Source: a virus. Taken from it: a stretch of DNA of 27,088 nucleotides. Both the position numbers and the translations under genes were made by a program. Shown one piece after another: positions 3,534 through 26,331 of this stretch. The stretch spans positions 1-27,088 of IMG/VR virus record IMGVR_UViG_3300017917_000476, one strand, 5' to 3'. Every line of letters starts with the position of its first letter. The stretch's first letter is position 1. The notes under the pieces are model-generated. The model did no database searches, had not been told where the DNA came from, and saw only the letters and a program-made list of their open reading frames with translations.

Positions 3534-3737
3534 CTAAATGTTGCCTTCTCGTACCCCGCCAAGCTCCTCTAAAGATGCTAATAATGTAGCCATTTTAGTA
3601 TTACATATTATTAGTTTATCCTCTAGAGAATATTTATCTTTAAGTTTTTCTGCATTATCAATATACGATTGTATAACTTTTTCTAAATTATCAATCTTAT
3701 TAATAATAATATCTATTTTTTCTTGATTAGTAAGCAT
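3534..3737 (-). CDS. Small coiled-coil protein, first of a paralogous pair
   Basis: A 67-residue helical protein beginning LTNQEKIDIIINKIDNLEKV, clearly similar to the next gene downstream (3283-3495). The remaining sequence is a second amphipathic helix (KMATLLASLEEL) ending before a short Gly-rich tail. ATG 3737 overlaps the stop of the giant fibre gene by one base (TAATG), with AGGA about 9 bases upstream, so it is probably co-translated with the fibre. That coupling makes a fibre-related role (chaperone or small accessory subunit) attractive, but this is inference. No known motif was seen. Confidence 0.7.
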   Translation of the reverse strand: MLTNQEKIDIIINKIDNLEKVIQSYIDNAEKLKDKYSLEDKLIICNTKMATLLASLEELGGVREGNI

Positions 3738-6700
3738 TATACGTATCCTGACGCTGGCGAGAAACCTGAATATGCAGATGATCCAGACGAGTTATTTGCC
3801 CTTACTCTTGCTCTTGCATAATTTAAATAATTACTTCCAACTGTTTGATAAGCAATTTGATATGAAGTTCCTGTTGGATCTGGACTTGAATATAATGGTC
3901 CATATGCATTAGAACCAGCTCCATCACTAGCAAGGTAATATTCAACTGTATAGCTTGTTGCTCCAGATGATGCTGTCCATGTGACTAAACCACTACCAGA
4001 AGTAGAAACATTTGTTGGTGTTGCTGGTGCGCTTCCTCCAGATGCTGTCCATCTAGCATACATAGTAATACTTGATGGTGGATTAAAGCTTCCTCCAGAT
4101 GCAATTGGTCCATAAGTATAGTCTCCGCTAGGGGTATTATAATAACCATTAAATGTATATCCAGATCTTGTTCCTGGTGATGGTGCAGTATGAGATACCC
4201 CAACATTTTGAGTTGTTGTTCCTCCACCACTTCCACCATTAGCATTCCATGTAACTGTATATGTTGCTTGGCTAATTGTAAACTGAACTGGACTACTCCA
4301 TGAAGATATTGTTGTCGATGGTCCAGATCCAGTATTGGTTAATGCTGAAACAGATCTAACCGCAACATACCATGTTCCAGCACTAGGTCCAGTAGTATCT
4401 GTTACTGGAGAACTTGATCCATTTGCATCATATCCAGTAACTCCAGAATAGTCAGATGATGTTTGCCACCATATTTGATAGTATGGACCAGAGCCACCAG
4501 TAAAATAAACAGATAAAGATCCTCCTGGAGTAGATTGAGAAACTAATGTTATTGTGGGTGCAGTTAAATTATTTGCTGTCCATATTGCATAAAATGTAAT
4601 ATCTCCAGTTATTGTATATGTTGTTCCTGGTGTTGCAAATACTGGGTCTCCTCCAGATAGTGGACTTCTCCATGTACTAAAAGTATATCCAGACCTTGTA
4701 GCTGATGGAACAGTAAATGTAGATCCATATACTCCAGTATAAGTATATGAGGACTGACCATTACCACTGCCAGATGATAGTGTTCCTCCATTTGCATTAA
4801 ATGTTACACTATACGTAATTGCAGACCATTGTGCATATAAAGTAATATTAGAGGTTGGAGAATAGCTACCACCAGATGTACCAACATATGTACCTCCAGA
4901 TGATGCTGTATACCATCCATTAAATGTATATCCAGTTCTAGCATCTGGTGTTGGCAAAGTTACTGAGCCAGGGTATACAGCAGAATTTGACGATGGTGTG
5001 CCAGTACCACCATTATAATTATATGTAACTGTATATGTATTGGCATTCCAAATTGCCCAATATGTTCTAGCGCTTTCTAAACCAAGAGACCCAAATGTAT
5101 AATTTGTTCCAGGTGATAAGAAATATGGATCACCACCAGATTGTGGGTATCTCCAATAAAAAAGCGAATAGTGTGTTCTTGTAGCAGAAGGAGCTGTGAA
5201 ACTACTTCCGCTAAATCCAGAATATGTATATGATGTTAAGCCGTTCCCAGGTCCTGAAGATATAGTTCCGCCGTTAGCATTAAGTGTAATATCTATTGGT
5301 CCATTTATAGTTATTGTTGCATTTTGAACTACATTTCCTGGTTGAGCAATAACAGTTAAAGTATAACTAGTAACTGTAGTGTATGTATGAGCTATTGAAG
5401 CATTTACTGTAGACGTATTAGAAGTAATACTCCCAGAACTATAATTGGATGTTCCATCTCCCCAATTTATAGTATAGCTTGTTGGATAATGGCTTATACT
5501 AAAAGAAAAATTATTAGAAGCGTTTTGATTTACTGATGTTGGGCTAATTGACCCTATAGCAATAGCTTGGTCTAAAATATATGTACTAGATACAGCAGTT
5601 GCATACGATCCGTCTGGATTAGTTGCTTTTACTCTAACAAAAAGATAGTCTCCAACATATATTGAAGTATATGTTCTTGTATTTCCAATATACCCTGTAT
5701 TTTGTAATGATCCAGATGTTGAGTCTTCAAGCCACCAATCATATTCATATGTTGTTCCAGCTGAAACATTTGTCCAGGTTCCCTGAGTTGCAGTTAGTGT
5801 TGTGCTAACTGGTAAATATCCCCTATTATTTAAAGGACCAATTGTTGGAGCAACAGTGTTTATTGGTGGATTTGATAGTGTTGTAAAAGAAAGATTATCT
5901 ACTGTTTTTTGTGTTGGTGTTGCAGTTAAATACCAGCTGTCTCTTGCAACAATAACAATTTTTGCATAGTATTGTGTATTTGGAGATATAACAGAAGAAT
6001 CATTGACATATGCACTACCTGTTCCAGGTGTTATATCTACTGTTTTTACTACAACATTATCTGAGACTCTTCTAATTGTTAGTGTTTGACTTGATATATA
6101 ATCAGTGTCATTGGTTATACCGTTTACATTCCAACTAAAAGTAGCTCCGTATGATGTAATTGATGATCTAGCAAAATTAGTTATAGAAAACCCAAGTCTT
6201 GCTAGAATTGCAGCAGTTTCAAGTGGTGTTGTTCCATCTGAATTTGTTGCTTGAATTAAACCTTTAAAATAATATGATGGATATACAGCATCTTGTGCAG
6301 TAATTGTATAAGATTGATATGTATCTGATGTTGTATTTGCTAGTGTTGGTGTTGAAGATGAATTATATGTTTTATCTGCAGTGCCTGCAGTAAGATATCC
6401 AGAATTAGCATCTTGTGAATATTGTACACGTATTCTAATAGATGTAGGATTTTGCGTCCAATCTCCTCTAGTTGTTCTAATAGTGTCTCCACTATAAAAC
6501 TCTGTTTCTGAATTTAATGTGCCGTAAGTAGTTGATCCAACATATGTTTTTGAAACTGGAGCTTTTGGTTGTGGTGCATCAGTACCTTGAAAAACTAATT
6601 GCCATTTTGCTGCAATAGTACTATTAAAACGATAAATCTTTTTTATTTTTTGCCATACTGATCCATTCCATCTATAGATATTAGACATGGCCTTCCATTC

Positions 6701-6751
6701 TGGAGTACCACTATTATCGTATCCATTATCATCATATCTAAAAATTGGCAT
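3737..6751 (-). CDS. Giant modular tail fibre/adhesin with InlB B-repeats, PKD-like and fibronectin-like domains
   Basis: A 1004-residue structural protein, rich in Gly, Ser, Thr and Tyr, lacking signal peptide or anchor. Residues 1-55 look like a virion-attachment head with doubled aromatic motifs (IYRWNGSVW, IYRFNSTIAAKW). Residues 60-180, 186-293 and 296-392 look like Ig/Fn3 beta sandwiches (for example ATQGTWTNVSAGTTYEYDWW). Residues 399-483 are PKD-like, with the hallmark WGDGTSNY (430-437) and AHTYTTVTSYTLTV (454-467). Four InlB B-type repeats follow (487-570, 573-645, 647-724, 831-903), recognisable by NANGG near the start, GYTFNGW in the middle and YAQW or YARW at the end. An Fn3-like domain closes the protein (909-1004). 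It probably contacts the host surface. ATG 6751 has GGGGA upstream. InlB B-repeats are best known from Gram-positive surface proteins, so their presence in a phage fibre is unusual. Confidence 0.88.
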   Translation of the reverse strand: MPIFRYDDNGYDNSGTPEWKAMSNIYRWNGSVWQKIKKIYRFNSTIAAKWQLVFQGTDAPQPKAPVSKTYVGSTTYGTLNSETEFYSGDTIRTTRGDWTQNPTSIRIRVQYSQDANSGYLTAGTADKTYNSSSTPTLANTTSDTYQSYTITAQDAVYPSYYFKGLIQATNSDGTTPLETAAILARLGFSITNFARSSITSYGATFSWNVNGITNDTDYISSQTLTIRRVSDNVVVKTVDITPGTGSAYVNDSSVISPNTQYYAKIVIVARDSWYLTATPTQKTVDNLSFTTLSNPPINTVAPTIGPLNNRGYLPVSTTLTATQGTWTNVSAGTTYEYDWWLEDSTSGSLQNTGYIGNTRTYTSIYVGDYLFVRVKATNPDGSYATAVSSTYILDQAIAIGSISPTSVNQNASNNFSFSISHYPTSYTINWGDGTSNYSSGSITSNTSTVNASIAHTYTTVTSYTLTVIAQPGNVVQNATITINGPIDITLNANGGTISSGPGNGLTSYTYSGFSGSSFTAPSATRTHYSLFYWRYPQSGGDPYFLSPGTNYTFGSLGLESARTYWAIWNANTYTVTYNYNGGTGTPSSNSAVYPGSVTLPTPDARTGYTFNGWYTASSGGTYVGTSGGSYSPTSNITLYAQWSAITYSVTFNANGGTLSSGSGNGQSSYTYTGVYGSTFTVPSATRSGYTFSTWRSPLSGGDPVFATPGTTYTITGDITFYAIWTANNLTAPTITLVSQSTPGGSLSVYFTGGSGPYYQIWWQTSSDYSGVTGYDANGSSSPVTDTTGPSAGTWYVAVRSVSALTNTGSGPSTTISSWSSPVQFTISQATYTVTWNANGGSGGGTTTQNVGVSHTAPSPGTRSGYTFNGYYNTPSGDYTYGPIASGGSFNPPSSITMYARWTASGGSAPATPTNVSTSGSGLVTWTASSGATSYTVEYYLASDGAGSNAYGPLYSSPDPTGTSYQIAYQTVGSNYLNYARARVRANNSSGSSAYSGFSPASGYV
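4043..4261 (-). repeat. Fourth InlB B-type repeat of the fibre protein
   Basis: Encodes residues 831-903: YTVTWNANGG, then TRSGYTFNGYY, then SSITMYARW. It is separated from the first three repeats by a different beta domain (about residues 728-828). Compared with the others it has an extra glycine run after NANGG. Confidence 0.8.
4580..5293 (-). repeat. Three tandem InlB B-type repeats of the fibre protein
   Basis: Encodes residues 487-724 as three successive units of about 73-84 residues. Unit 1 (5042-5293) and unit 3 (4580-4813) share extra elements: GNG..SYTY, then SATR, then SGGDP with PGT.YT. Unit 2 (4817-5035) lacks these and has the shorter, more classical form (GYTFNGWYT, NITLYAQW). 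The alternation suggests duplication of a two-unit block or repeated recombination. Confidence 0.8.
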
Positions 6752-6761
6752 AGATTCCCCA

Positions 6762-9700
6762 CTATACTAAAGTCATATAAAGATCACCAGTAGAAAAATT
6801 GCCAGGATTAGAAGATGTATATCTAGGCACTCCACCAATATATCCTTGTGTTGCTCCAAAAGTATTATTAAATGCATATCTTGAGGTAATAGCACTTGTT
6901 GGTGTATTATTTCCACCATACCAAATTGCTCTACCAGTTACTATCTTACCATCTGGTACACCACCAAGTCCAGCTGGATTAATAATTCTTGTAACAGTTG
7001 GATCTCCTGCAGTACCGTCGTCTCCACCTGTTGTATCTGTTAAAACTAGATTAGCTCCACTAATAGTTGTGCTAGATGAAGTTCCAGTTAGTGTTCCACC
7101 ACCAAGACTAAAGGATCCAGTTGAATACCAGTAATTTGAAGAATTTACATATAAACCATCTAGTCCAGTACCGCTAGCATTATCTCCAAATTTCATACTT
7201 CCATTATTTACTGATACTGTTCCTTTTATATTGGCATCTTCTGCAGTTAAAACACCCTGTTGAGTTACTGCAAATTTTGGTGTTCCAAGAACTCCACTAG
7301 CAATTGGTCCTGCCCATATTACATATGGTGTTGTTGTGCTATCAGATTTTCCGACTTTTAATAAATAATTTGTTCCGCTTTGACTTCCATAAATTCTTAT
7401 TTCATTAGTAGTTGATGTTGAATCTATAACAAACTGACCATCTGCTGATGACATTGTTGTTGAACCAAATATCCATCCACCAATATATGCAGACTTACTA
7501 AATAAATTAATATCAATTGGAGATGTAATTGTATTTCCTCTTGGTGTACTACCACTTGATATTGGCTTTGTTAAAATTTCTGTTGTTGCTGCACCACTAC
7601 TATTAAATGCTGCTAACCCACCATAATTCGATCCATCTGCTCCTTGAATAATAACTGAATTTGCGTTACTTGTTCCAGTACCAGCAATTATTGATCCAGT
7701 TGGCTTAACTATAAAATTACCTGATATTTCTCCAGATGTTGCTTTAATTTGACCAGATAGGTTTACGCTTGACGCTGTTAGTTGTCCAGAGGTATTTACG
7801 TGGAATCCATTAGGTGATGCTGGACCAACATCAAGGGTTCCTCCAGATATTTGAATATCTTGTGCCCAAACTTTACCAGCATTATTTACTGCAAACTGAG
7901 TTGTATCTCCACCAGCTACGGTACTGCCAGCCCAAAACTTATATGTTCCAGTTGAAGATAGTCCTGCATATTTTGTGGTAGATGGATCTAGCTTTTCTAT
8001 TTTAGATGCTGATATTACCCAGTCTGCTATATTTCCATTGTTAGCAGTTATTGCTCCATTTGTAGTGTCAAGAGATACTTGATTGCTACCCTTACGAATT
8101 AGCAGACCATCTTTATTAAAAATAAACCCATCGCCAGTTAAATTGCCTGGGCTTGTTGTTACATCTCCACTATATATAGATGCTCCAGATGTTGTTAAAG
8201 ATACGTTGCCAGAAAAAGAACCTCCTCTTGCTGTAATATCTCCATCAACTGTAAATTTTGTTCCATTCCAAAGCAGATAGTTGCTAGTCGATCCACCAAC
8301 TTTTAATCTTGCACTATCTGAAGCATTTAAAAACCAATAATTACTATCATCAAAAAATAAACCACGCTTTGTTCCACTAATTCCAGTTGTGTTGCTTGGA
8401 TCTACTCCAACACCAAATTGAAAGTTTCCAGCAGTTATGTAATCAGTAATTGCTGGTGTCCCAGTTATTTCTGTATCTGTAAATGAAATATAATCTGTAG
8501 ATGTGTTATTATATTGATCATATGTTGCAATTGCTATCTTGTATGTTGCACCTACTGCTAAACCTTGAAGCTTATATGATAATGTTCCTGTTGGAATATT
8601 TGCTTGATCTATTGGATAATCTACATAAGAATAAACTGGATTAGATGTGTCAGTAGTAAACCTTATTCTGTACCCTCGTAAACTTGACTCTGTAACTGCT
8701 GCCCAGGAGATATTTATGTATCCATTAAATCCGAGTGTTCCGCTTGTATCAATTCCTGAAGATGTTGACATTCCAGTTTGAGAAACATTTCCTGGACCTG
8801 TAATATCAACAGTAACTGGAGAAAGTGGAACCACAATTTGTTCTGCAGAATAATTAGAGGCATTTTCAAAATCATCATAATATCTGATAAGCAGATATGT
8901 ATTTTGATATAAAGTTGAAGCAATATTTGCTGGACTTGTTCCAGAATATACTATTCCATATCCTGTAACTGAGCCAGATACTTGTGAAGTAAAATTATTA
9001 TTTACAGTTATTTGATTTCCAGATACTGATGTTATATATGTATTCTCTGGTATTCCAGTTCCTATTACTATATATCCAGTAGGGATTGTTGTTACTGTAC
9101 CGCCGTCATTATCAAGAACTGACGAAAGAGTAACTGTATTAGTTCCAGATGCACCTCCTGATGAATAAGATCCAGTAAATGAGTCAACTGGTGTTACTCC
9201 AGACCAGCTCGTATATTTTTGGTAAACTTCTGCGTAAACTGCTCCTGCTGGAAGTGTATATGAAACACTATATCCATTAACTAATGCGGTAGTTGTAAAT
9301 GTAGGAGTTATTCCAAGAAGTGGATTTGCTCTTTGTGCAATAGTAAAAGCAACACCGCTTGTTCTATTATCTGCTGCGTCTATACTTTTTAATACTCCAG
9401 TATATGATGAATAGTGAGATCCAAATTGTGCAAATAAATCTGCTTTGGTAATAGTATATGTTTGATTAAGAGAAGATCCAGATGGGAAAGCATAAAAATA
9501 TCCTACTGAAGAATTTGGTGCAGTTAAACCTATCTGAAACCTAGAACCTGCATCAGTTGCTGGTAAAGTATAGCTAATTATAATATTATCTCCAGACCAT
9601 GCTCCAGATACGGATGCAACCTCTGCTGGTGGTATTAAGTCTGCAGATATTGGGTTTGTTGGAGTTACTTTTACTACATTAGAGTATTGACTAAAAAGCG

Positions 9701-10529
9701 TTCCCTTATTGTTGAATCTTGCTCTTACCCATCTTGCTTCTGTTGTTGAAGTAGTTATTCTAGCTGGCTTAATAGTAGATACTCCAAGATATACCTGTTC
9801 ATATCCTGTAGTTGGTGCAGTACCAGCATCTGAAACTACCTCTTCTATTGTTACAAATTCAAAAGATTGAGAAACTGTATTCCAATCTACAGAATATCCC
9901 TGTAAAATACTTGTAACAGTAATGACTGGAGTAGGTAAATTATTTGTATATTCTGGAATATCTGTTAGTACAGCAAAATTTCCAACGTTACCAGATGAGT
10001 CTACGGCTGCAACTCGTAACTGAGCAAAATCAACCTGAAATTCTCCAAAATTATTAATATTTGCTAACTCTGAAAACTCTATTCTTTGTGATGTACCTGA
10101 CTGATTTAATATTTTACTTTCTATTAAATTTGTTGTAAATGTATTGCCTATATTAGTTAAATCATATTGAAATGACGATGCATATTTATTAGTTTCATCT
10201 GCAAAATCAAAATCAAAAGTTATTACTAGTGTTGCTCCGCCAGCTAAATCTTCCCATGTTGCCGAAAGATTTGTGATATCTCCTGGTTTTATTTCTGGTT
10301 TTGGAGTTGGTGGATCTATAACTATTTGAGCACCTGGAGCTGCATTTTTTAAATATGAAAATTGACCTGATTGAGAAATTCCATTAGCATTAACTATCTG
10401 TATTTCAGATCCAATTCTTGATGCTGTTATTCCATATTTGTATCCACGTATACGTGGGTCATTAGGATCAATAAACATGGTTTGCCTTTTACCCACAGAA
10501 AAAGGCGAATTGTATTTAGGCAATACCAT
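6762..10529 (-). CDS. Very large tail fibre/minor tail protein with fibronectin-like domains
   Basis: A 1255-residue protein. Residues 1-75 form an N-terminal module (DPNDPRIRGYKYG). Residues 80-195, 196-291, 300-400, 404-570 and 573-690 look like successive Fn3-type sandwiches. The fourth is interrupted by a small extra domain (456-526) that also occurs in the distal tail protein. From about 695 the protein changes to repetitive Gly/Ser/Thr-rich sequence with units around SNYWFLN (729-735) and SNYWYS (1131-1136), LKVGGSTSNYLLWNGTKF and ADWVISASKIEKL, typical of beta-rich fibre shafts. The C-terminus (NFSTGDLYMTLV) may be the tip. The protein probably forms a tail-tip extension for host contact. 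ATG 10529 is preceded by a weak AGGTAGGT site, 8 bases after the lectin-like gene. No enzymatic motif was seen. Confidence 0.85.
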   Translation of the reverse strand: MVLPKYNSPFSVGKRQTMFIDPNDPRIRGYKYGITASRIGSEIQIVNANGISQSGQFSYLKNAAPGAQIVIDPPTPKPEIKPGDITNLSATWEDLAGGATLVITFDFDFADETNKYASSFQYDLTNIGNTFTTNLIESKILNQSGTSQRIEFSELANINNFGEFQVDFAQLRVAAVDSSGNVGNFAVLTDIPEYTNNLPTPVITVTSILQGYSVDWNTVSQSFEFVTIEEVVSDAGTAPTTGYEQVYLGVSTIKPARITTSTTEARWVRARFNNKGTLFSQYSNVVKVTPTNPISADLIPPAEVASVSGAWSGDNIIISYTLPATDAGSRFQIGLTAPNSSVGYFYAFPSGSSLNQTYTITKADLFAQFGSHYSSYTGVLKSIDAADNRTSGVAFTIAQRANPLLGITPTFTTTALVNGYSVSYTLPAGAVYAEVYQKYTSWSGVTPVDSFTGSYSSGGASGTNTVTLSSVLDNDGGTVTTIPTGYIVIGTGIPENTYITSVSGNQITVNNNFTSQVSGSVTGYGIVYSGTSPANIASTLYQNTYLLIRYYDDFENASNYSAEQIVVPLSPVTVDITGPGNVSQTGMSTSSGIDTSGTLGFNGYINISWAAVTESSLRGYRIRFTTDTSNPVYSYVDYPIDQANIPTGTLSYKLQGLAVGATYKIAIATYDQYNNTSTDYISFTDTEITGTPAITDYITAGNFQFGVGVDPSNTTGISGTKRGLFFDDSNYWFLNASDSARLKVGGSTSNYLLWNGTKFTVDGDITARGGSFSGNVSLTTSGASIYSGDVTTSPGNLTGDGFIFNKDGLLIRKGSNQVSLDTTNGAITANNGNIADWVISASKIEKLDPSTTKYAGLSSTGTYKFWAGSTVAGGDTTQFAVNNAGKVWAQDIQISGGTLDVGPASPNGFHVNTSGQLTASSVNLSGQIKATSGEISGNFIVKPTGSIIAGTGTSNANSVIIQGADGSNYGGLAAFNSSGAATTEILTKPISSGSTPRGNTITSPIDINLFSKSAYIGGWIFGSTTMSSADGQFVIDSTSTTNEIRIYGSQSGTNYLLKVGKSDSTTTPYVIWAGPIASGVLGTPKFAVTQQGVLTAEDANIKGTVSVNNGSMKFGDNASGTGLDGLYVNSSNYWYSTGSFSLGGGTLTGTSSSTTISGANLVLTDTTGGDDGTAGDPTVTRIINPAGLGGVPDGKIVTGRAIWYGGNNTPTSAITSRYAFNNTFGATQGYIGGVPRYTSSNPGNFSTGDLYMTLV
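8952..9164 (-). repeat. Small beta domain, copy A (inside the large fibre)
   Basis: Encodes residues 456-526 of the large fibre: SSGGASGTNTVTLSS, later GTGIPENTYITSVSGNQITV, ending SQVSGSVTGYG. It splits an Fn3-like domain whose halves rejoin well if it is removed. It matches the domain at 15629-15814 in the distal tail protein. Confidence 0.7.
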
Positions 10530-15191: not shown

Positions 15192-15880
15192 TAGATCTCC
15201 GTAAATTCTATATCTATATCTACAAAGTCTGTTCCTGTAGTTCTCTTAAGTATATTTTTGGAAAAGTTAGTAATGAATACCTGATATACCTTAGATCCAG
15301 TTGATGCTGAAACGTATGTGCTATTATTTGGTATTTGACCAAGTGATGGATCTGTATGCTTTGATGCAATTATTTTAATATAAATAGGATTTCCAACATT
15401 AGCATTATAAAAAGATGTTAACCATGATCCGCCATAGTTTCCATCAACTATTGGAGACTTGCTTGTAGAAGAAGTTGGTAAAAATTTCCATGATGTAGAA
15501 ATAATATCTTTTTTACTAATAACAAACTTTCTTAAAGTTCCATTTGCCATTCTTTGTTCTTTTTCTATAAGAATTGGGCTAACTTGAATCTCAGACCTAT
15601 TGTGGTCTGTTAATTTATACCATGTAGTACTAAATGTGATAGTGCCAGAAATCTGAGCAGTGGCTGCTGGAGTAAAATTAACAGTAGTTCCAGATACGCT
15701 AGTTACCGTCGTATTTGCCGCAAAGCCAGTTCCAGTAATTGTCTGACCGTAGGCTATATTAGAGTTAACTGCTGCAATAACTACAGAAGTTGCTCCAGAG
15801 GCTCCCCCAGAGGCACGTGTGGCCGTTGTGGGGGTATTGTTAAGAGCTATAGCAATTCCAGAATCTAATGAATACGCCAT
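15191..15880 (-). CDS. Distal tail (Dit-like) minor tail protein with an inserted domain
   Basis: A 229-residue protein between tape measure and hub, the place of Dit-type proteins. The part after residue 86 (WYKLTDHNRSEIQVSPILIE, RKFVISKKD, then ISTSWKFLP) and the C-terminus (KVYQVFITNFSKNILKRTTG) look like a beta-rich tail-ring protein ending with VDIDIEFTEI. Residues 23-84 form a small Gly/Thr/Val-rich beta domain that looks inserted near the N-terminus, related to one in the large fibre. ATG 15880 overlaps the tape measure stop by one base, with GGTGGG upstream, so translation is coupled. Position is the main argument for Dit; no direct match to a characterised Dit motif was seen. Confidence 0.75.
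   Translation of the reverse strand: MAYSLDSGIAIALNNTPTTATRASGGASGATSVVIAAVNSNIAYGQTITGTGFAANTTVTSVSGTTVNFTPAATAQISGTITFSTTWYKLTDHNRSEIQVSPILIEKEQRMANGTLRKFVISKKDIISTSWKFLPTSSTSKSPIVDGNYGGSWLTSFYNANVGNPIYIKIIASKHTDPSLGQIPNNSTYVSASTGSKVYQVFITNFSKNILKRTTGTDFVDIDIEFTEI
15629..15814 (-). repeat. Small beta domain, copy B (inside the distal tail protein)
   Basis: Encodes residues 23-84 of the distal tail protein: ASGGASGATSVVIAA, GTGFAANTTVTSVSGTTVNF, then AQISGTITFST. It matches copy A in the large fibre and has visibly more G and C than the surrounding gene, which suggests recent acquisition. Confidence 0.7.
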
Positions 15881-18800
15881 TATTTATTACCCACCTTATT
15901 AGTCTTATTGTTTTTATTTTCTAAAACTTTAAGTTTTGATATAACCTTATCTGCTATTTCACTAGGATTATCTCCCGTGATATTCATGGTTACAGTATAC
16001 ATTGTACCGCCAATTGTAGTTGTAGATCCAGAGAAGCCTAGAGCTCCTTGATTAAATCCAACTTTAGGTGTAAGCGGTAGTGGCGAAATACCCTCGTAAT
16101 TTCCAGCTCTTAATTGACCAAGCAAAGCCGTGTCTGTTGCAGTAAGCTTTTTGGTATCTGCAACTATTCCACTTCTTTCTTGTGCTAAACTAATTATTCT
16201 GTCTAATTGAGTTATTCCACTTTCACGAGTAAACTTTGCTCCTTCAAACATTGCCTGTTGTTGCAAAGAAGCTGCTTCTAAATAGTTACCAGATATTTTT
16301 GCCTTAGATGCTTGATTTAACAAGTCCATTTGCTTCATTTGATATTGAACCTGACGATCCATCTCATCACTTATATCTTTAAGGGTGTCTCGTTTTTTAT
16401 CTAATAACTTTAGTTCTTTTTCATATGGATTTACAAATTTACCATCGCCAGCTCCGCTACCTACTCCTTTACCATTTCCAGAAGTGTTTTTTGCACCAGG
16501 GATAACCTTTTTTGATGCTTGTATATCAGCAAGAGCTTTTTCTAATTCTCTTTTTTCTAAAGTTAATTCTGCAACTTTTCTAGCACCGTCTGGACCAGAT
16601 ATTTTTGATGCTACCTTTATTTCTTTATCAAGAGATTTTAGTCTATCTGTAATGTCTCCTTCTAACATTCCAGCTCCAACTCCAGCATCAGCTAATATTT
16701 TTATTGCAGCAGTTACTGTTTTGCCATTTATTTTATCTAAAAGCTCTGGTATTTTTGCAATATCAAGAATTGTCATGCTACCCTGTGCATAAGCCATCAT
16801 AATGTCAACTTGTGCATTTTTATCAAGAGTTTCTAATGAACTTGCAATCTTTTTAAATAACTCAGGGTTTGATTTCTTTAGCGCTGCAAATGCTTGATTA
16901 CCCATATCTTTTAGTGCAGCAGCAGACATTTCTCCACTAGAATCAACCTTATCTAATTCAGCTATTAAATCTTTTGTTGATGATCCAAGTTTAGAGAAAT
17001 TATCTGAAGAAATAACCATTTGTGCATCATATTGTTCTTTTGTTATTAATCCATCATCATATTGTGCATTAAGCAATCCCAATGCTTCTGTTTCCTGAGC
17101 ATATGCCATAGAGAGTTGTGTAGTAGCTGATTGTACAGTTAATTGAATTTGATTATATTTATTTAACTGATCCTGGAATCTTTTTCCAAATGTTCCAGTG
17201 GCTATATCTATTCCATATGCCTTAGCACTTCCAGCTATTCCACCCTGTTCGGAAGCTTTATTTCTAGATGCCTGATATCCAGCAGCCCTCTTTAGCCCAG
17301 CAAAATCTGTACCTAAACCAAGTGGACCAAACTCACCAATGTTAATTTTTGATACATTTTTAATTGCTGTACCAATACTCTTAATTGTGTCGTCTGATTG
17401 TTTCTTTAAAAATTCCATTCTTGCTTTAATAGTTAATGGTTCTTTTGTAATATCTTTACCATCTGGAGCTAGTATTGACTGTACCGCCATTTTTAGTTTA
17501 ACTTGATCTGCACCAATAAGATCTGCTGCTGCCTTAATATTTGCTGCAATATCAGCAGGACCTAGTCCAAAAATAGCTGCTCTCTGTGCAACATCTATTG
17601 CTGCTGCCTGAATTCCAGATTGTGGGCCTTTCATTGCAGCCTGGTTTATAACTGCTGTTGATCTATTACCCTTTTGTCCATAAAACTCTGCAAATCTTTT
17701 TACTGCTTCTCCACTAGCAGAAATTAATAGTCTATTATTTCTACTAAATTCTCTAGCACTTGGTAAAGATCTACCTGTAAACTGTGCATACTCCTCTATA
17801 GCACGAGTACTTCCATATCTTGCCTCTGCTTCTTTTTTGGCTGTATCTGCTAACTCTTCTGCAGCTTTTTTTGCAGCTTTATTAACAGCATATATTCCAG
17901 CAGCCATTCCTACAAGCAGTGTTGGTATTGGCCCTATAACATTTCTTAACATTGCAACTGCTTGTAAGGCAAAAACTGCTGGCATTATAGATTGTGCTAA
18001 CTGCCCAAATTTTCCAGGTAACATTGACAATGCAAAAACTAATCCTGAAAGTCCAAAACCTCCAACAGATCCACGCATTCTTCCAAATCTTTTAGCTCTT
18101 GTCTTTGGCTGTTGATCATCTGGTATGCTTGGTGGCATTTCTGGCATACCTAAAAATACTGGGCTTCTTCCTCCAGCCATTCCTGCTACTTGTGAACTAC
18201 TAACCCTACTCATATTTGCAATATCTTGTTGTGTAAACGGTCTGCCAGTTTTTGGATTAATTAATGAAGATCCAACTGATCCTGCAGATCCCTTGCTTGC
18301 TGCTAGTAATTGAGTATTTACTGCCTTAGAATATGCAGCAGCATCATCTCTGCCATCTCGTGATGCCATAGGATGTGGGCTTCTTCTTTCCCTGCTTGCT
18401 AAATAAATATCTTTTGTATTTTTTTGAACTACTTGCTCATATGTTTCTGCATCTTTTTGAGCTTGTTGTCTTAGAACTTGTGCAGATCGTATTTCTGTAG
18501 CACTATATGCTTGTGATGCTAAAGCACCCTTTGCATTTATAGCAGAAATCAATCTTGCTCTTTCTTGTTCTGACATTGCTCCTGGAGCCATTCCGCCACC
18601 AGACATTGGCATTACTGAACCAAGAAGTCTTGCTTCATTAACGTGAGCATATGTTGTTTTTAATCCAGATAGTTTGTCTTTACCTTTTGTTAAATATTTC
18701 CACATTCCTTCAACTGGTCCCTGGAATGGAGAGTTTCTTAGTCTTCTCATGGAAATAGCGGATGGTTTATCTCCAACCTTTCCTGAAGGAGCTCTTACTT

Positions 18801-21441
18801 CACCTAATGGTCCAGTAATTTCTGACATTCCTGGGAAGAATCCGTGCTTTTCAATAGCTTCTGCTGCTAGAGCTGCTTTACCACCAGCATTTCTCATTCT
18901 TGCAAAAATATCAGATAGTTGTGTTCTTGATTGTCCTATAATCTTTGATATAGTTAGTGATTCATTTTGCATACCGCCCATATTTTTAGCAGTAGCTCTT
19001 AATTCAGAAACTATTTCTTCTGCATAAACCTGTAAGTCATCAGCATATTCTTTTCTAACAACATCAGTCATTCTCTTTCTTGTTTCTGTTCCAGCAGCTT
19101 GACCTAACTTGAATGATCCTCCGCCAAGCGCAGATAACATAGATGCAATAAATCCTTCTCCTTCTGCAAAGAAAGATCTTTCCATTCCAAATTTATTTGA
19201 AGCTGTATTTCCTGGTGCTGGCAAAGCAAGACCACCATAAAGAACTGATTGTCCTCCAGTTATAGATGGTCTTCCAACTCTACTATTTTCAAATCCTGGA
19301 ATATTATCTGCAATAATTCCTTGAACTAGTGGTGCATATTTTTTATTCATTGCTGTTGAAATAATTGCTTCTCCTGGAGATACCATAGCTGGTACAACAT
19401 CTCCAGCACCTTTTGGACCAGGGACACTGACTATTCCATTAGCGTATCCTTTTACCTTAAATCCTGGTTGCATCATTCCTGGGAATCTTGTTGCTGCAGC
19501 ATTTTGTGCAGCAATCATTCTTTGATATTCTGCAATTAATTGTCTTACTGCTCCAGCTTCTCCTGTAAATGCCTGCTGTAATCTCATATGTGATTGTTCT
19601 AAAGATGCAGCAGCTGCAACTGCACTTTGCTGTTCTACTGTAAGATAATTAGTTTGTTCTCCAAGAATCTTTGATTGTCCAGTTAGCTTTAAGAATCCAG
19701 TTCTTAAAAGTAGTAGTCCCTTGACACCATTAGCAACAAAGTTAGCCATCAAACCTATTGTCATCAAAATAACTGGCGCTAGTCCACCTAGATATAAAAC
19801 AACCTTAGTTAAAACTTTTTTACTTGTATCAGATAGGCCATTAAACCAATTTAACAAAGAATTTAATTTATCAAGTAGTGGTGTTATAACTTCTAAAAAT
19901 GCTTGTCCAACTGGAACAAGGGCAACCTTTAAATCTTCAACAGCTTTTCTAAACTGATTCATTGAGGAGTTAGCAGTAATACCTAATTCTTTTTCTGCTA
20001 AAGATGCAAGGTCTTCCATAGATGCTGAAGCTAAATCAAGAACACGTGAGGCTTGATTTCCATCTCTAATTACATTATCAAATAATGCAGACAAACGTGC
20101 TTGCTGGAACTTACCAAATAATTGTTCGATTGCTCTTTGTCTCTGTAGATTAGATAATCCATCAAGAGCTTTAGCAAATTCTATAACTGTTGCTTTAAGG
20201 TTTCCAACATTTTTTTCAACTATTTGATCAATATTAATACCCATATCAGAAAGCATTCCTTTTGCTTTATCTGTTGGGTTAATAAGAGATGCAAGACCAG
20301 ACTTAAGTGCGTTTGCACCTTCTGATGCATTAATACCGCCTTCTTTCATGGCAGCCATAAAGAATGCTAAATCTTTAACATCTCCACCAAGTTCTTTAAC
20401 AATCGGTGCTGCTTTTGGAATTGCAGTTGTAATATCGTCCAGGGAAACAACAGTTTGGTTTTCAACTGCGTTTAAAAAGTTAATTGCATCTGTGAGCTCA
20501 TTTGAAGAAATTTTAAATGCGTTTTGCAAAGATATTGTAGTTTCAAGAGCTTTCTGTTGATCAATTTGTCCAAGAACTTGAAGTCTTGTTGCTTGTGTAA
20601 CTTGTGCTTGAAGATCTGATCCACTAAAGCCTGCTGCTGCTGCTTCTGCTGCCAAACTTACAGTATCTGCAACTGCTATTCCATATTTAGTAAATTCTTT
20701 TCCAAGAGCCTGAATTGACTCTAAAGCAAATTGTGTTTCTTCTGCTGGAGTAAATAAATCTCCATATACCTTTCTAAATTTGATTGCAGCAGTTTCCATA
20801 TCCATGAATGTTTTTGTTGCTACTGAACCAAGCCCCATTAATGGAATAGTAAAACCAACCATGAGCTGACGACCAGCCCACTGAGTATTTTTACCAAAGT
20901 TTAATAGATTTGTAGATCCTTGTTTTACAAGCTGATTAAAAATTGCTTGTTTTTGTGCTGCTAATTGAGTTTGAGTGCTAAGATTAGTCATATCAAGCTT
21001 TGTTGGCATAACTGCAATAGCTCTCATGGCACCGTTTGCATCACGGCCCATCTTTATATATTGTGTCTGTAATCTCTTTACATTTTCTACAGCTACTTTA
21101 TTTATAGTATCAAATTCAGAACGGAAGAATCTTCCAAATGATTTTGTAGACGCCCCAGCATAACGGAAGTACTCCCGCATTGAAAACTTATTACGTTCTA
21201 ATGAATCTGTAAAGTTTTCTGCTGTTGTTTTTACTGTTCGTAATTCTGCAGAGAACCCCTGAATAGCATTTACGCCATTTATGAAGTTCTTCTGCAGATC
21301 ACGTTGTGCTAATGCAGCTGCGTCACTGCTTTTTGCTACTGAGGCATGAAATCTTGCGATCTCTCTTTGTAATGCTTTAAGCTGTGCTAATGCACCAGAC
21401 GTATCTATATTTACGCCAATTTCGGCATTTACATCAGCCAA
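15880..21441 (-). CDS. Tail tape measure protein
   Basis: An 1853-residue protein, the largest in the window, in the expected place between chaperones and distal tail. Residues 1-190 are helical and coiled coil. Residues 200-520 carry the TP901-type tape measure core (MDMETAAIKFRKVYGDLF, LAAEAAAAGFSGSDL, MKEGGINASEGANALKSGLA, QLFGKFQQARLSALFDNV). Hydrophobic segments lie at about 547-580 and 1128-1186. GYANGIVSVPGPKGAGDVVP, then AMVSPGEAIIS (665-695) recalls a motif seen in several tape measure proteins. A long region of unknown role covers 700-1110, and the C-terminus is coiled coil. The usual relation of about 0.15 nm per residue predicts a tail near 280 nm. The start is TTG (21441) behind GAGGTG; a TATAAT hexamer at 21461-21466 directly follows the upstream stop but lacks the TG extension. 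Confidence 0.95.
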   Translation of the reverse strand: MADVNAEIGVNIDTSGALAQLKALQREIARFHASVAKSSDAAALAQRDLQKNFINGVNAIQGFSAELRTVKTTAENFTDSLERNKFSMREYFRYAGASTKSFGRFFRSEFDTINKVAVENVKRLQTQYIKMGRDANGAMRAIAVMPTKLDMTNLSTQTQLAAQKQAIFNQLVKQGSTNLLNFGKNTQWAGRQLMVGFTIPLMGLGSVATKTFMDMETAAIKFRKVYGDLFTPAEETQFALESIQALGKEFTKYGIAVADTVSLAAEAAAAGFSGSDLQAQVTQATRLQVLGQIDQQKALETTISLQNAFKISSNELTDAINFLNAVENQTVVSLDDITTAIPKAAPIVKELGGDVKDLAFFMAAMKEGGINASEGANALKSGLASLINPTDKAKGMLSDMGINIDQIVEKNVGNLKATVIEFAKALDGLSNLQRQRAIEQLFGKFQQARLSALFDNVIRDGNQASRVLDLASASMEDLASLAEKELGITANSSMNQFRKAVEDLKVALVPVGQAFLEVITPLLDKLNSLLNWFNGLSDTSKKVLTKVVLYLGGLAPVILMTIGLMANFVANGVKGLLLLRTGFLKLTGQSKILGEQTNYLTVEQQSAVAAAASLEQSHMRLQQAFTGEAGAVRQLIAEYQRMIAAQNAAATRFPGMMQPGFKVKGYANGIVSVPGPKGAGDVVPAMVSPGEAIISTAMNKKYAPLVQGIIADNIPGFENSRVGRPSITGGQSVLYGGLALPAPGNTASNKFGMERSFFAEGEGFIASMLSALGGGSFKLGQAAGTETRKRMTDVVRKEYADDLQVYAEEIVSELRATAKNMGGMQNESLTISKIIGQSRTQLSDIFARMRNAGGKAALAAEAIEKHGFFPGMSEITGPLGEVRAPSGKVGDKPSAISMRRLRNSPFQGPVEGMWKYLTKGKDKLSGLKTTYAHVNEARLLGSVMPMSGGGMAPGAMSEQERARLISAINAKGALASQAYSATEIRSAQVLRQQAQKDAETYEQVVQKNTKDIYLASRERRSPHPMASRDGRDDAAAYSKAVNTQLLAASKGSAGSVGSSLINPKTGRPFTQQDIANMSRVSSSQVAGMAGGRSPVFLGMPEMPPSIPDDQQPKTRAKRFGRMRGSVGGFGLSGLVFALSMLPGKFGQLAQSIMPAVFALQAVAMLRNVIGPIPTLLVGMAAGIYAVNKAAKKAAEELADTAKKEAEARYGSTRAIEEYAQFTGRSLPSAREFSRNNRLLISASGEAVKRFAEFYGQKGNRSTAVINQAAMKGPQSGIQAAAIDVAQRAAIFGLGPADIAANIKAAADLIGADQVKLKMAVQSILAPDGKDITKEPLTIKARMEFLKKQSDDTIKSIGTAIKNVSKINIGEFGPLGLGTDFAGLKRAAGYQASRNKASEQGGIAGSAKAYGIDIATGTFGKRFQDQLNKYNQIQLTVQSATTQLSMAYAQETEALGLLNAQYDDGLITKEQYDAQMVISSDNFSKLGSSTKDLIAELDKVDSSGEMSAAALKDMGNQAFAALKKSNPELFKKIASSLETLDKNAQVDIMMAYAQGSMTILDIAKIPELLDKINGKTVTAAIKILADAGVGAGMLEGDITDRLKSLDKEIKVASKISGPDGARKVAELTLEKRELEKALADIQASKKVIPGAKNTSGNGKGVGSGAGDGKFVNPYEKELKLLDKKRDTLKDISDEMDRQVQYQMKQMDLLNQASKAKISGNYLEAASLQQQAMFEGAKFTRESGITQLDRIISLAQERSGIVADTKKLTATDTALLGQLRAGNYEGISPLPLTPKVGFNQGALGFSGSTTTIGGTMYTVTMNITGDNPSEIADKVISKLKVLENKNNKTNKVGNK

Positions 21442-21466: not shown

Positions 21467-21790
21467 TTACTCTGCTGTACCAAGAACATCAGGCATAGCA
21501 TTTAATGTTGCTCCAGAAGCTGCTTCGACAATTTTGTAAACTGTTGGTAGATCTAATAGTTCTTCCAACTTTGCAATATCATCTGCAATTTCTGGCTTAT
21601 ATTGCTTCATTGCAATTTGAGCACATTCAACAAGAAGTGTCATTGACTTCTCATTATCTTCCGCCACTGCCGCAACTCCCTCAAACTTCTTCAAAAATGG
21701 ACGAAGAAGAGAGATCTTTAGAGGACGAACCTTAATTTCTGTTCCATCAATAAGAACAAGGCTTTTTTCCTCATGAATTGTTGTTGCCAT
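21467..21790 (-). CDS. Short tail assembly chaperone (G-like), paralogue of the longer one
   Basis: A 107-residue protein similar end to end to the N-terminal half of the gene at 21834-22526. Both begin MAT-I, then share LIDGTEIKVRPLKI / LFDGTEVEISPLKI, the stretch LVECAQIAMKQYKPEI / LAECVRIAMKQHYPEI and MPTVY/LPTVYKIVEAASG. It ends just after that domain and lacks the C-terminal T-like part. In lambda-like phages the short G protein comes from the same gene as GT by frameshifting; here a separate gene supplies it. It should coat the tape measure during tail assembly. ATG 21790 has GGAGGG upstream, and an extended -10 element lies 28 bases before the ATG. Its place just before the tape measure supports the call. 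Confidence 0.85.
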   Translation of the reverse strand: MATTIHEEKSLVLIDGTEIKVRPLKISLLRPFLKKFEGVAAVAEDNEKSMTLLVECAQIAMKQYKPEIADDIAKLEELLDLPTVYKIVEAASGATLNAMPDVLGTAE

Positions 21791-21818
21791 TATTTTCCCT
21801 CCAATATAGGTTATATAA

Positions 21819-21827
21819 ATTATATCA
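21819..21827 (-). promoter_or_regulatory. Extended -10 promoter-like element (TGATATAAT)
   Basis: Exact TGATATAAT on the minus strand in the 43-base gap between the two chaperone genes, 28 bases before the ATG at 21790. It would let the short chaperone and tape measure be transcribed independently of the long chaperone. No clear -35 box. Confidence 0.6.
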
Positions 21828-21833
21828 TAAAGA

Positions 21834-22526
21834 CTATGTTAAATCCTCATAGTCTAATCCCATGCCAATACCAAAGCCATATCTTTGAGCATTTTGTCCT
21901 TGTAAAGATAATATATCATTTGAGTCTTTTGCCTTACCTCCACTAAATACCCTGGCCTTAAGGTCTTCCCATTCTTTTTGGCCACGGTCAGAGTTGCTGT
22001 CTAGGTCTACTCCTTGTATTGCTGCCAAAAACTTTTTTTCTTCATAATCTAATTCTCTTTTACTTGACAATATTGCCATTAATTCTGGCATAGATATTGA
22101 CTTTTCTAAATCATCATAATTTTTCCATATCCCCAAAGTAAAAATTTCTGATTCTAGTTTAACCAAGTCTATCTCATCCCATGAGTTTTTTGATTCATTT
22201 TTTTGTGCCTGATCTGATACGGACTCTTCTGACTCTTGGTTTATTTTTATTCCCGCAGATATTTCTAGAACTGAATATACTGTTGGCATATCTATATTAT
22301 CTTCAATATCTGCTATAGATTTTGATATTTCTGGATAGTGCTGTTTCATGGCTATTCTTACGCATTCTGCTAAAATCATTAATGATTCATCATCATTTTT
22401 TGATTTACTAATTAATGCAAACGTATCCATAAATTGACGTAAATATTTTATTTTTAATGGAGATATTTCTACCTCTGTACCGTCAAATAAATAAATATGT
22501 TTAGTTGAATATATTTTAGTTGCCAT
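21834..22526 (-). CDS. Long tail assembly chaperone, in-frame fusion of G-like and T-like domains
   Basis: A 230-residue protein. The frame opens at a TTG (22538), but ATG 22526 follows GGGGG and aligns exactly with the start of the short paralogue, so it was chosen. Residues 1-95 are the G-like domain (LFDGTEVEISPLKI, LAECVRIAMKQHYPEI, MPTVYSVLEISAG). Residues 96-118 are a charged linker (ESEESVSDQAQKNESKN). Residues 120-230 are T-like, with SISMPELMAILSSKREL (143-159) and DYEEKKFLAAIQGVDLD (160-176), a signature I associate with the frameshifted half of actinophage chaperones. Here the halves are in one continuous frame. Two A-tracts in the linker (22186-22191, 22198-22204) are potential slippery sites that would shorten the product. 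A terminator and promoter-like element lie just upstream. Confidence 0.88.
   Translation of the reverse strand: MATKIYSTKHIYLFDGTEVEISPLKIKYLRQFMDTFALISKSKNDDESLMILAECVRIAMKQHYPEISKSIADIEDNIDMPTVYSVLEISAGIKINQESEESVSDQAQKNESKNSWDEIDLVKLESEIFTLGIWKNYDDLEKSISMPELMAILSSKRELDYEEKKFLAAIQGVDLDSNSDRGQKEWEDLKARVFSGGKAKDSNDILSLQGQNAQRYGFGIGMGLDYEDLT
22185..22205 (-). other. Two potential -1 slippery heptamers in the chaperone linker
   Basis: Within the linker, reading the minus strand in the coding frame, CAA AAA AAT contains the heptamer A-AAA-AAT (A7 tract 22198-22204) and TCA AAA AAC contains A-AAA-AAC (A6 tract 22186-22191). A -1 slip at the first meets TGA at once (22197-22195). A slip at the second meets TGA after CTC ATG GGA. 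Either would give a G-like protein of about 110-118 residues. Whether slippage occurs is unknown. Confidence 0.35.
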
Positions 22527-22540
22527 GTTGTCCCCCAACT

Positions 22541-22549
22541 ATTTTAGCA
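22541..22549 (-). promoter_or_regulatory. Extended -10 promoter-like element (TGCTAAAAT)
   Basis: Minus-strand TGCTAAAAT, one base from TGNTATAAT, placed directly after the terminator tail and 14 bases before the ATG at 22526. A transcript starting about 7 bases downstream would have a leader of only about 7 bases containing the G-run ribosome site. Confidence 0.5.
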
Positions 22550-22552
22550 CAC

Positions 22553-22579
22553 AAAAAGCCCACCTCTTTCGAGATGGGC
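22553..22579 (-). terminator. Intrinsic terminator after the major tail protein gene
   Basis: The minus-strand RNA reads GCCCAUCUC, a GAAA tetraloop, then GAGGUGGGC, a 9-base-pair stem with one G-U pair, followed by UUUUUGUGU. On the plus strand the same position is a C-A mismatch, so the structure is better on the coding strand. It lies 22 bases after the major tail protein stop and would insulate that gene from the chaperones. Confidence 0.9.
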
Positions 22580-22601: not shown

Positions 22602-23237
22602 CTAGCTAGCTGGTGTCCAGGTACGATCTACGATCTTACCATATGATCCAGTTGTGTCTTCAGGAAGAAGACGGAATGAAACTTCAAACATTGAAGGTTC
22701 GTCACGCTTTGCTGATACAGTTACGTTTTCAATTGAAAGAGCACGGTATGCTGTATAAACACGTTCTACGTATGCGGAATCTTCGCAATCACCAGTTCCA
22801 GGTCCAACAGCTACGATTCCTCGTTCTACTGGACATTCTCCGATTTCACCTGCAGAAAGATTTAGAGTTCTTCCTGCTGATGAAGCTTTGCTTCCTGAAA
22901 GTTGATTGTCATTGTATGCTAGAGCCAAGAGAAGGTTCTCAAGTGTAGCTTCAGCAAAAGCAGTTGCAAGATTTACCTGCATACCTTGCTTATACAACTT
23001 AGCAACGTCAAGAACTTGGTCAACCTGTACTTCACCGAAGTCAGGCTGGAACTGAAGTTCTAGACCATTCATGGTATAACCTACGTTTGTATAATCTGCC
23101 TCATCTGCCAAGGTTTCCTTGAATGATTCAGCGGTTACAAACGACTCCAATGTGCTTGGAGTTAGGGTTGTATCTGCTACAAAAAGTGCAGCAGCACCAA
23201 CGATAATGTTGGTCGACGTACCACGAGTATATGCCAT
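22602..23237 (-). CDS. Major tail protein (tail tube subunit)
   Basis: A 211-residue protein located between the tail terminator and the chaperones. The N-terminus (AYTRGTSTNIIVGAAALFVA) and ADYTNVGYTMNGLELQFQPD (47-66) are typical of siphovirus tube proteins, followed by VQVDQVLDVAKLY and LENLLLALAYNDNQL. The C-terminal strand reads FEVSFRLLPEDTTGSYGKIVD. It polymerises into rings to form the long tube around the tape measure. ATG 23237 has GAGGTG upstream. The gene is framed by its own promoter-like element (23294-23302) and an intrinsic terminator, fitting high expression. Its arginine codons are mainly CGT (6 of 8), and it has more G and C than most neighbours, as in the capsid gene. Confidence 0.9.
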   Translation of the reverse strand: MAYTRGTSTNIIVGAAALFVADTTLTPSTLESFVTAESFKETLADEADYTNVGYTMNGLELQFQPDFGEVQVDQVLDVAKLYKQGMQVNLATAFAEATLENLLLALAYNDNQLSGSKASSAGRTLNLSAGEIGECPVERGIVAVGPGTGDCEDSAYVERVYTAYRALSIENVTVSAKRDEPSMFEVSFRLLPEDTTGSYGKIVDRTWTPAS

Positions 23238-25948: not shown

Positions 25949-26304
25949 TATTTCTTTTTACGGTAAAACTTGGCTACCTCGTCTGGAGTTGCTATTCGCA
26001 CAGACTTATTGGCTAACCATTTTTCCGAATCCTCCTTGCTTAGAATATTGTAACCTCTTTCAAGCTCTCCTACCCCATTCCAATGAAGATTTTTTTCAGA
26101 ATACACTGCAATTTTTTCTGTTGGCTTATCTTTATTTTTTGCTTTTTGAACTTGATGTGGTGTAGGTAAAAAAGAAAAAATAACTTCTAATATTTCTGCT
26201 TTTGTACTAACTCCAAATAAATCTATATTATTTTGTTTTGCATAAGATTTTAGTTGTGGTACTGTTTTATTTTTTAATTCGTCTACTGTTGTCTCTAGTA
26301 ACAT
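25948..26304 (-). CDS. Capsid-adjacent small protein with N-terminal HeH/SAP-like domain
   Basis: A 118-residue protein directly after the capsid gene. Residues 8-42 (ELKNKTVPQLKSYAKQNNID, then STKAEILEVIFS) match the helix-extended loop-helix pattern of HeH, SAP or Rho-N type domains. After a basic linker (KAKNKDKPTEK) comes a second module, VYSEKNLHWNGVGELERGYN, then SEKWLANKSVRIATPDEVAKFY, which I recall as a common hypothetical family next to actinophage capsid genes. It may be a capsid decoration, head fibre or head-tail accessory protein; this is inference. ATG 26304 has GGAGGA upstream and an extended -10 element before it. Confidence 0.7.
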   Translation of the reverse strand: MLLETTVDELKNKTVPQLKSYAKQNNIDLFGVSTKAEILEVIFSFLPTPHQVQKAKNKDKPTEKIAVYSEKNLHWNGVGELERGYNILSKEDSEKWLANKSVRIATPDEVAKFYRKKK

Positions 26305-26322: not shown

Positions 26323-26331
26323 ATTATATCA
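26323..26331 (-). promoter_or_regulatory. Extended -10 promoter-like element (TGATATAAT)
   Basis: Exact TGATATAAT on the minus strand, 12 bases after the hairpin that follows the capsid gene and 18 bases before the ATG at 26304. It would start the connector operon. No clear -35 box, since that position falls in the hairpin arm. Confidence 0.6.

Follow-up and report, generated by a model that had tools for sequence, protein, structure and literature searches.

A fused tail assembly chaperone gene and a separate G paralogue probably take the place of ribosomal frameshifting in a large group of uncultured phages

In most tailed phages, a short and a long tail assembly chaperone are produced from one gene by a ribosomal frameshift, and few recoding events in phages are conserved as widely as this G/GT frameshift. 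In lambda, where G forms a coat on the tape measure protein and T attaches to the major tail protein, the G:GT ratio of ~30:1 is crucial, indeed essential (PMC5009743), and a permanent G-T fusion in TP901-1 leads to particles that look normal and are not infectious (PMC4493119). How, then, could a phage whose long chaperone is encoded in a single uninterrupted frame balance the two products? This question is evoked by an IMG/VR virus record of 27,088 bases, analysed here in its entirety and referred to as the window, in which a long gene with G-like and T-like halves is accompanied by a separate, short G-like gene. An earlier note on this DNA had proposed that the G:GT ratio is set by two genes rather than by recoding. 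The comparisons described below support this proposal; the ratio itself is a quantity that we infer, and it would be set, with a probability that we place at roughly 85%, by the promoter strength, initiation mode and codon usage of the two genes.

The long gene (21834..22526, minus strand), a fused tail assembly chaperone of the GT type, encodes 230 residues from an ATG at 22526, and a TTG located 12 nt upstream of this codon could lengthen the protein to 234 residues. Its G half (~22206-22526) and T half (~21837-22178) lie in one open frame, and the coordinates, strand and continuity given in the earlier note were all right. The family phrog_10504 is matched by residues 1-107 of the long protein and by the short protein along its length, and phrog_10474 by residues 133-193 of the long protein, within the T half and in the same frame as the G half. 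The short gene (21467..21790, minus strand, 107 residues), which had been proposed to be a paralogue of the G half, is indeed one: in a BLASTP alignment with that half, 43 of 97 residues are identical (44%) and 66 of 97 are similar (E=2e-29), far above chance. Its product, G2, would be the abundant tail assembly chaperone. This homology also answers the concern that the short protein could turn out to be unrelated. The first PDB match of its structural model (pLDDT 56) is the HK97 tail assembly chaperone 2ob9, at a TM score of 0.47 and E=1.3, which is not significant, and the resemblance of such a low-confidence model is at most suggestive. Foldseek with the long-protein model and a sequence profile search of the PDB gave nothing significant.

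The gene order on the minus strand is major tail protein, long gene, short gene and tape measure protein. The major tail (tail tube) protein gene, upstream of the pair (22602..23237; phrog_2175, 1.6e-32; phrog_885, 4e-4), occupies the same place as the annotated major tail proteins of phage records, and the tape measure protein gene (15880..21441; phrog_10030, 8.6e-104) lies downstream. This order fits tail assembly chaperones, and the pair displays the traits of the G/GT type: a position between major tail and tape measure proteins, an N-terminal domain common to both products, and homology to annotated tail assembly chaperones. Neither Rfam families nor tRNAs were found in the window. Downstream of the tail genes, two long proteins of 1004 and 1255 residues (3737-6751 and 6762-10529) have no PHROG match; the former reads as repeats of a GYTFNGWY-type motif, and both are probably tail-tip or adsorption proteins. 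Adjoining the head genes, a small protein (25951-26304) has a Rho_N/SAP-like N-terminus (Pfam E=2e-4, below its cut-off), and its gene is preceded by the TGnTATAAT motif discussed below.

Searches by tblastn yielded 124 phage records for the short protein and 132 for the long one, all of them from Streptomyces or Rhodococcus phages and many annotated as tail assembly chaperone. The long protein matches these cultured phage records in two pieces: in cultured Streptomyces phages, the phrog_10504 and phrog_10474 families are separate ORFs, which many records annotate as tail assembly chaperones. In the phage records examined, G and T lie in different frames, with T at -1, and a joined CDS is annotated in three. 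Since tblastn reports one place per record, it revealed no second G copy in cultured phages. The loci were surveyed with G and T profiles built here and run on every stop-to-stop ORF of IMG/VR loci and phage records; the input consisted of the best 80 of several hundred matches per scan, and the clade is larger than this sample, the counts not being a census.

Among the matches listed, 265 loci were surveyed, 209 of which carry a fused G+T ORF and one separate G ORF, while 52 have a single G and carry T in an ORF of its own, or 51 once L116, a fused locus cut at the contig start, is excluded from the frameshift class. L116, three fused loci that lack the short gene (L020, L035, L266) and one short gene standing alone (L147) were considered as exceptions and rejected, all five being cut by contig ends. 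This leaves 260 complete loci among the matches listed, 209 with fusion and short gene and 51 with frameshift and single G, and none of them presents a mixed arrangement, be it a fusion without the short gene or a frameshift with a paralogue. The distinct DNA sequences among the matches listed number 200 (158 fused, 42 frameshift). Fusion and paralogue are strictly coupled in every uncut locus of this set. The earlier note had considered that its proposal would suffer if relatives had a conserved frameshift and no short paralogue; close relatives have no conserved frameshift in the long gene, and the short paralogue is always present where the contig suffices. It is in more distant relatives (Stanwilliamsviridae, Rhodococcus phages and metagenome contigs such as L200, L203, L208, L214, L245, L257 and L261) that a frameshift without a paralogue occurs, as is expected if duplication replaced recoding.

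The breadth of this survey also bears on whether the single open frame could be an artefact, an indel introduced at a slippery run by sequencing or assembly, since long A-runs are prone to error in some sequencing methods. The same fusion, however, is present in 209 loci with 149 distinct protein sets, and the linkers differ by whole codons; this conservation refutes an indel origin, whose probability is negligible. A scan of GTDB genome contigs found no relative, so that the host is not identifiable from a prophage; the known relatives, together with the start signals described below, make an actinobacterial host likely.

In every frameshift locus among the matches listed, T lies at -1 relative to G. 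A canonical in-frame heptamer is located within the overlap in 19 of 27 frameshift representatives, namely GGGAAAC in the nearest contigs (L200, L208, L245, L261), CCCAAAC/T in others and GGGAAAA in Rhodococcus phages. In the remaining eight, of the Coruscant/Paradiddles/Karimac type, the overlap is present and the canonical heptamer absent. These eight Streptomyces phages (L083, L085, L092, L095, L097, L099, L100 and L105), with a -1 overlap and no canonical X XXY YYZ, share a conserved GCTGGGA-like stretch directly before the G stop, and the slip site of this type may be non-canonical. The window and the 209 loci, by contrast, do not have the combination of T in the -1 frame, overlap and slippery site that defines a programmed -1 frameshift, as their two halves share one frame.

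Recoding could nevertheless still set the ratio if, as happens in dnaX, a -1 slip at A-rich heptamers of the fused gene were to stop translation early and so add to the supply of G, to which the short gene would be a supplement. The G-T linker of the window does hold two such heptamers, A AAA AAT and A AAA AAC (22185..22203, minus strand), which are possible, unconserved slip sites; A AAA AAT is followed by TGA in the -1 frame, with A AAA AAC nearby. These A-runs are absent from most fused relatives, however, only 7 of 60 fused representatives having a linker heptamer, and heptamers are not enriched in fused linkers (8 in 1619 codons vs 85 in 11974 elsewhere in the gene). Slippage on the A-runs of the long gene was rejected on both counts, and a ratio still governed by recoding is very improbable.

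When did the fused arrangement arise? Neighbouring genes were employed for the tree because a tree of T alone, in which T1 needs three changes with weak support, is too short to decide. In the resulting trait-independent tree of 61 loci, built from the major tail protein and the N-terminus of the tape measure protein, the fused loci form one clade (SH-aLRT 98) that is nested among frameshift loci, the closest of which are L245/L261, L208 and L200. Frameshifting is thus ancestral here and was lost once, and no reversal to frameshifting is seen in the 61-locus tree. The tree of G domains, which the earlier note had envisaged as a means of dating the duplication, places the fused copies in one clade (98/97) and the short copies in another (99/85); the nearest frameshift G proteins stand beside the short copies, while the fused copies sit on a long stem of 0.83, and the short copy is the slowly evolving one. 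The data do not reject a constraint that groups the fused with the short G copies (p-AU 0.21), so that the duplication may have happened at the root of the fused clade or a little before it.

The two genes also differ in the signals from which they would be expressed. The short gene is preceded by an extended -10 element, TGATATAAT (21819..21827, minus strand), whose exact form TGnTATAAT occurs in 60 of 60 representatives at a median of 26 nt before the start; of random 60-nt stretches drawn from the same loci, 1.4% contain it. Its copies in related loci number 115 on the coding strand and four on the other. In the window, minus-strand copies lie at 26331, 21827, 11061, 3519, 1936 and 747, mostly 24-30 nt before a gene start. 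The motif looks like the extended -10 promoter of this phage group. A Shine-Dalgarno sequence, GGAGGG (21797..21802, minus strand), completes the start region of the short gene, at -10.4 kcal/mol in the window and a median of -10.2 in the 60 representatives.

Upstream of the fused gene lies a degraded extended -10, TGCTAAAAT (22541..22549, minus strand), 14 nt before the ATG. Among representatives, TGnTAnnnT is present in 58 of 59 and TATAAT in only 9 of 59, and the median distance from the end of the -10 to the start codon is 7 nt (<=10 nt in 51 of 59). Shine-Dalgarno pairing has a median of -2.9 kcal/mol and in 58 of 59 cases is weaker than its counterpart before the short gene (paired p=3e-11). 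In the window this contrast is smaller than in the clade, a possible weak ribosome-binding site, GGGGGA (22531..22536, minus strand), reaching -8.4 vs -10.4 kcal/mol for the short gene; this element is confined to the window's own subclade, and with it and a gap of ~14 nt the window and its closest relatives would have a short leader rather than none. In bacteria, a TA-like signal ~10 bp before the start most probably denotes a leaderless gene, the type lacking a Shine-Dalgarno sequence and having TANNNT ~10-12 bp ahead of the start, and predictions put the average share of leaderless genes in actinobacteria at 19% (PMC3160421). This pattern fits 51 of 59 fused representatives (TGnTAnnnT at <=10 nt, median Shine-Dalgarno -2.9), but not strictly the window (14 nt, -8.4), and the fused-gene mRNA is probably leaderless in most of the clade. 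Seven frameshift metagenome contigs have G genes with starts of the strong type (TATAAT in six of seven, median 29 nt, Shine-Dalgarno -9.6), which identifies the short gene's start as the ancestral kind and that of the fused gene as weak.

A terminator-like hairpin with a T-rich tail (22550..22579, minus strand; z=-6.6 on folding) separates the major tail protein gene from the fused gene; such an element precedes the fused gene in 57 of 59 representatives and lies between the two chaperone genes in 6 of 59. A generic sigma-70 scan showed no excess and, combined with a terminator scan, was uninformative; it took comparison between relatives to reveal the promoter-like elements, and folding to reveal the hairpin. 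The earlier note's promoter-like element for each gene is therefore borne out by conservation across relatives and not by a consensus scan. As to the INDEPENDENCE of the two genes, locus L062 carries an insertion of ~730 bases between them (L062:5697-6470), with a methyltransferase-like ORF, and its short gene keeps its own TGCTATAAT and AGGAGG despite the insertion, the promoter being intact. In L035, the same interval (5700-6223) holds an unrelated ORF with its own TGCTATAAT and strong Shine-Dalgarno start, before the contig end. Within the tail module, the gap between fused and short genes is a place where accessory genes are inserted.

Codon usage differs in the same manner. Codon adaptation, scored against the major tail protein, is 0.63 in the short gene and 0.51 in both the fused G half and T, the respective values in the window being 0.71, 0.48 and 0.47. 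ATA accounts for 53% of isoleucine codons in the fused G half and 41% in the T half, for 7% in the short gene and 3% in the major tail protein; in frameshift contigs, the shares are 7% for G and 28% for T. The poor codons of the fused G half are thus those of a scarce product.

These observations suggest a scheme in which, in an ancestor with -1 frameshifting, the G gene was duplicated and one copy was joined in frame to T, with loss of the slippery site. The unfused G2, with a consensus extended -10, a leader and a strong Shine-Dalgarno sequence as in frameshifting relatives, would yield abundant G to coat the tape measure protein. The fused G1-T, which follows the terminator of the major tail protein gene and has poor codons and a weak -10 that nearly touches the start codon, would yield little GT, which would recruit the major tail protein through T. 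Since fusion alone is non-infectious in TP901-1 and the ratio is crucial in lambda, free G has to come from elsewhere in a phage whose long gene is fused. It could be supplied by the short gene, given that promoter, initiation signal and codons agree in indicating abundant G and scarce GT; such proxies would indicate the direction of the imbalance, not a number for the ratio.

The short paralogue could alternatively have another task, for instance as a regulator or a tape-measure-specific chaperone, leaving the fused protein alone as the tail assembly chaperone, a reading with which the separate clades of the two G copies, and their identity of ~44% in the window, would be compatible. It is nonetheless the short copy that evolves slowly, groups with frameshift G proteins, bears the start signals and codons of the ancestral G, and is never lost where the genes are fused, among the matches listed; moreover, a fusion on its own gives no infectious phage in TP901-1 (PMC4493119). 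Such a division of tasks is improbable, and a short gene that provides free G is to be preferred. In going beyond the earlier note, the analysis adds a systematic difference in start strength, a leaderless-looking and codon-poor fused copy, and a single switch. It seems likely, on balance, that duplication replaced an ancient and near-universal recoding event once only and without reversal, with a weak, leaderless and codon-poor GT and a strong, Shine-Dalgarno-led G as the outcome.

A large clade that lacks the frameshift shows what the frameshift is for, since a second copy of G is found in every complete locus of it among the matches listed, with start signals and codons in the two copies that point to the same imbalance. 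The ratio is separable from the mechanism that sets it, and the ratio required could thus be tested with two independent start regions. For annotators, the absence of a frameshift from a long chaperone is not in itself a sign of error.

Chaperones made without frameshifting are already known; in the open-access literature searched, no report was found of G and T fused in frame alongside a separate G paralogue, of divergence between their start signals, or of duplication replacing the chaperone frameshift. The chaperones of T4-like phages, which are unrelated myoviruses, are reportedly made without frameshifting, according to the title of Vladimirov et al. 2022 (Virology 566:9). Some Microbacterium cluster EA phages, like the window, have no evident frameshift between two chaperone ORFs, but these are described as two separately expressed ORFs, with no in-frame G-T fusion and G paralogue reported (PMC7302621). 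Stanwilliamsviridae (Streptomyces phages Coruscant, Paradiddles and Patelgo) and the Rhodococcus phages Dorin, NiceHouse and Trina have homologous G and T domains, and their chaperone genes also lie between those for the major tail and tape measure proteins; they have overlapping -1 frames and one G gene with no paralogue, whereas the window has a fusion and a separate G. Finally, lambda G/GT and the window have in common a short and a long chaperone that share an N-terminal domain and precede the tape measure gene; in lambda both proteins arise from one gene via -1 frameshifting (~30:1), whereas in the window they are encoded by two.
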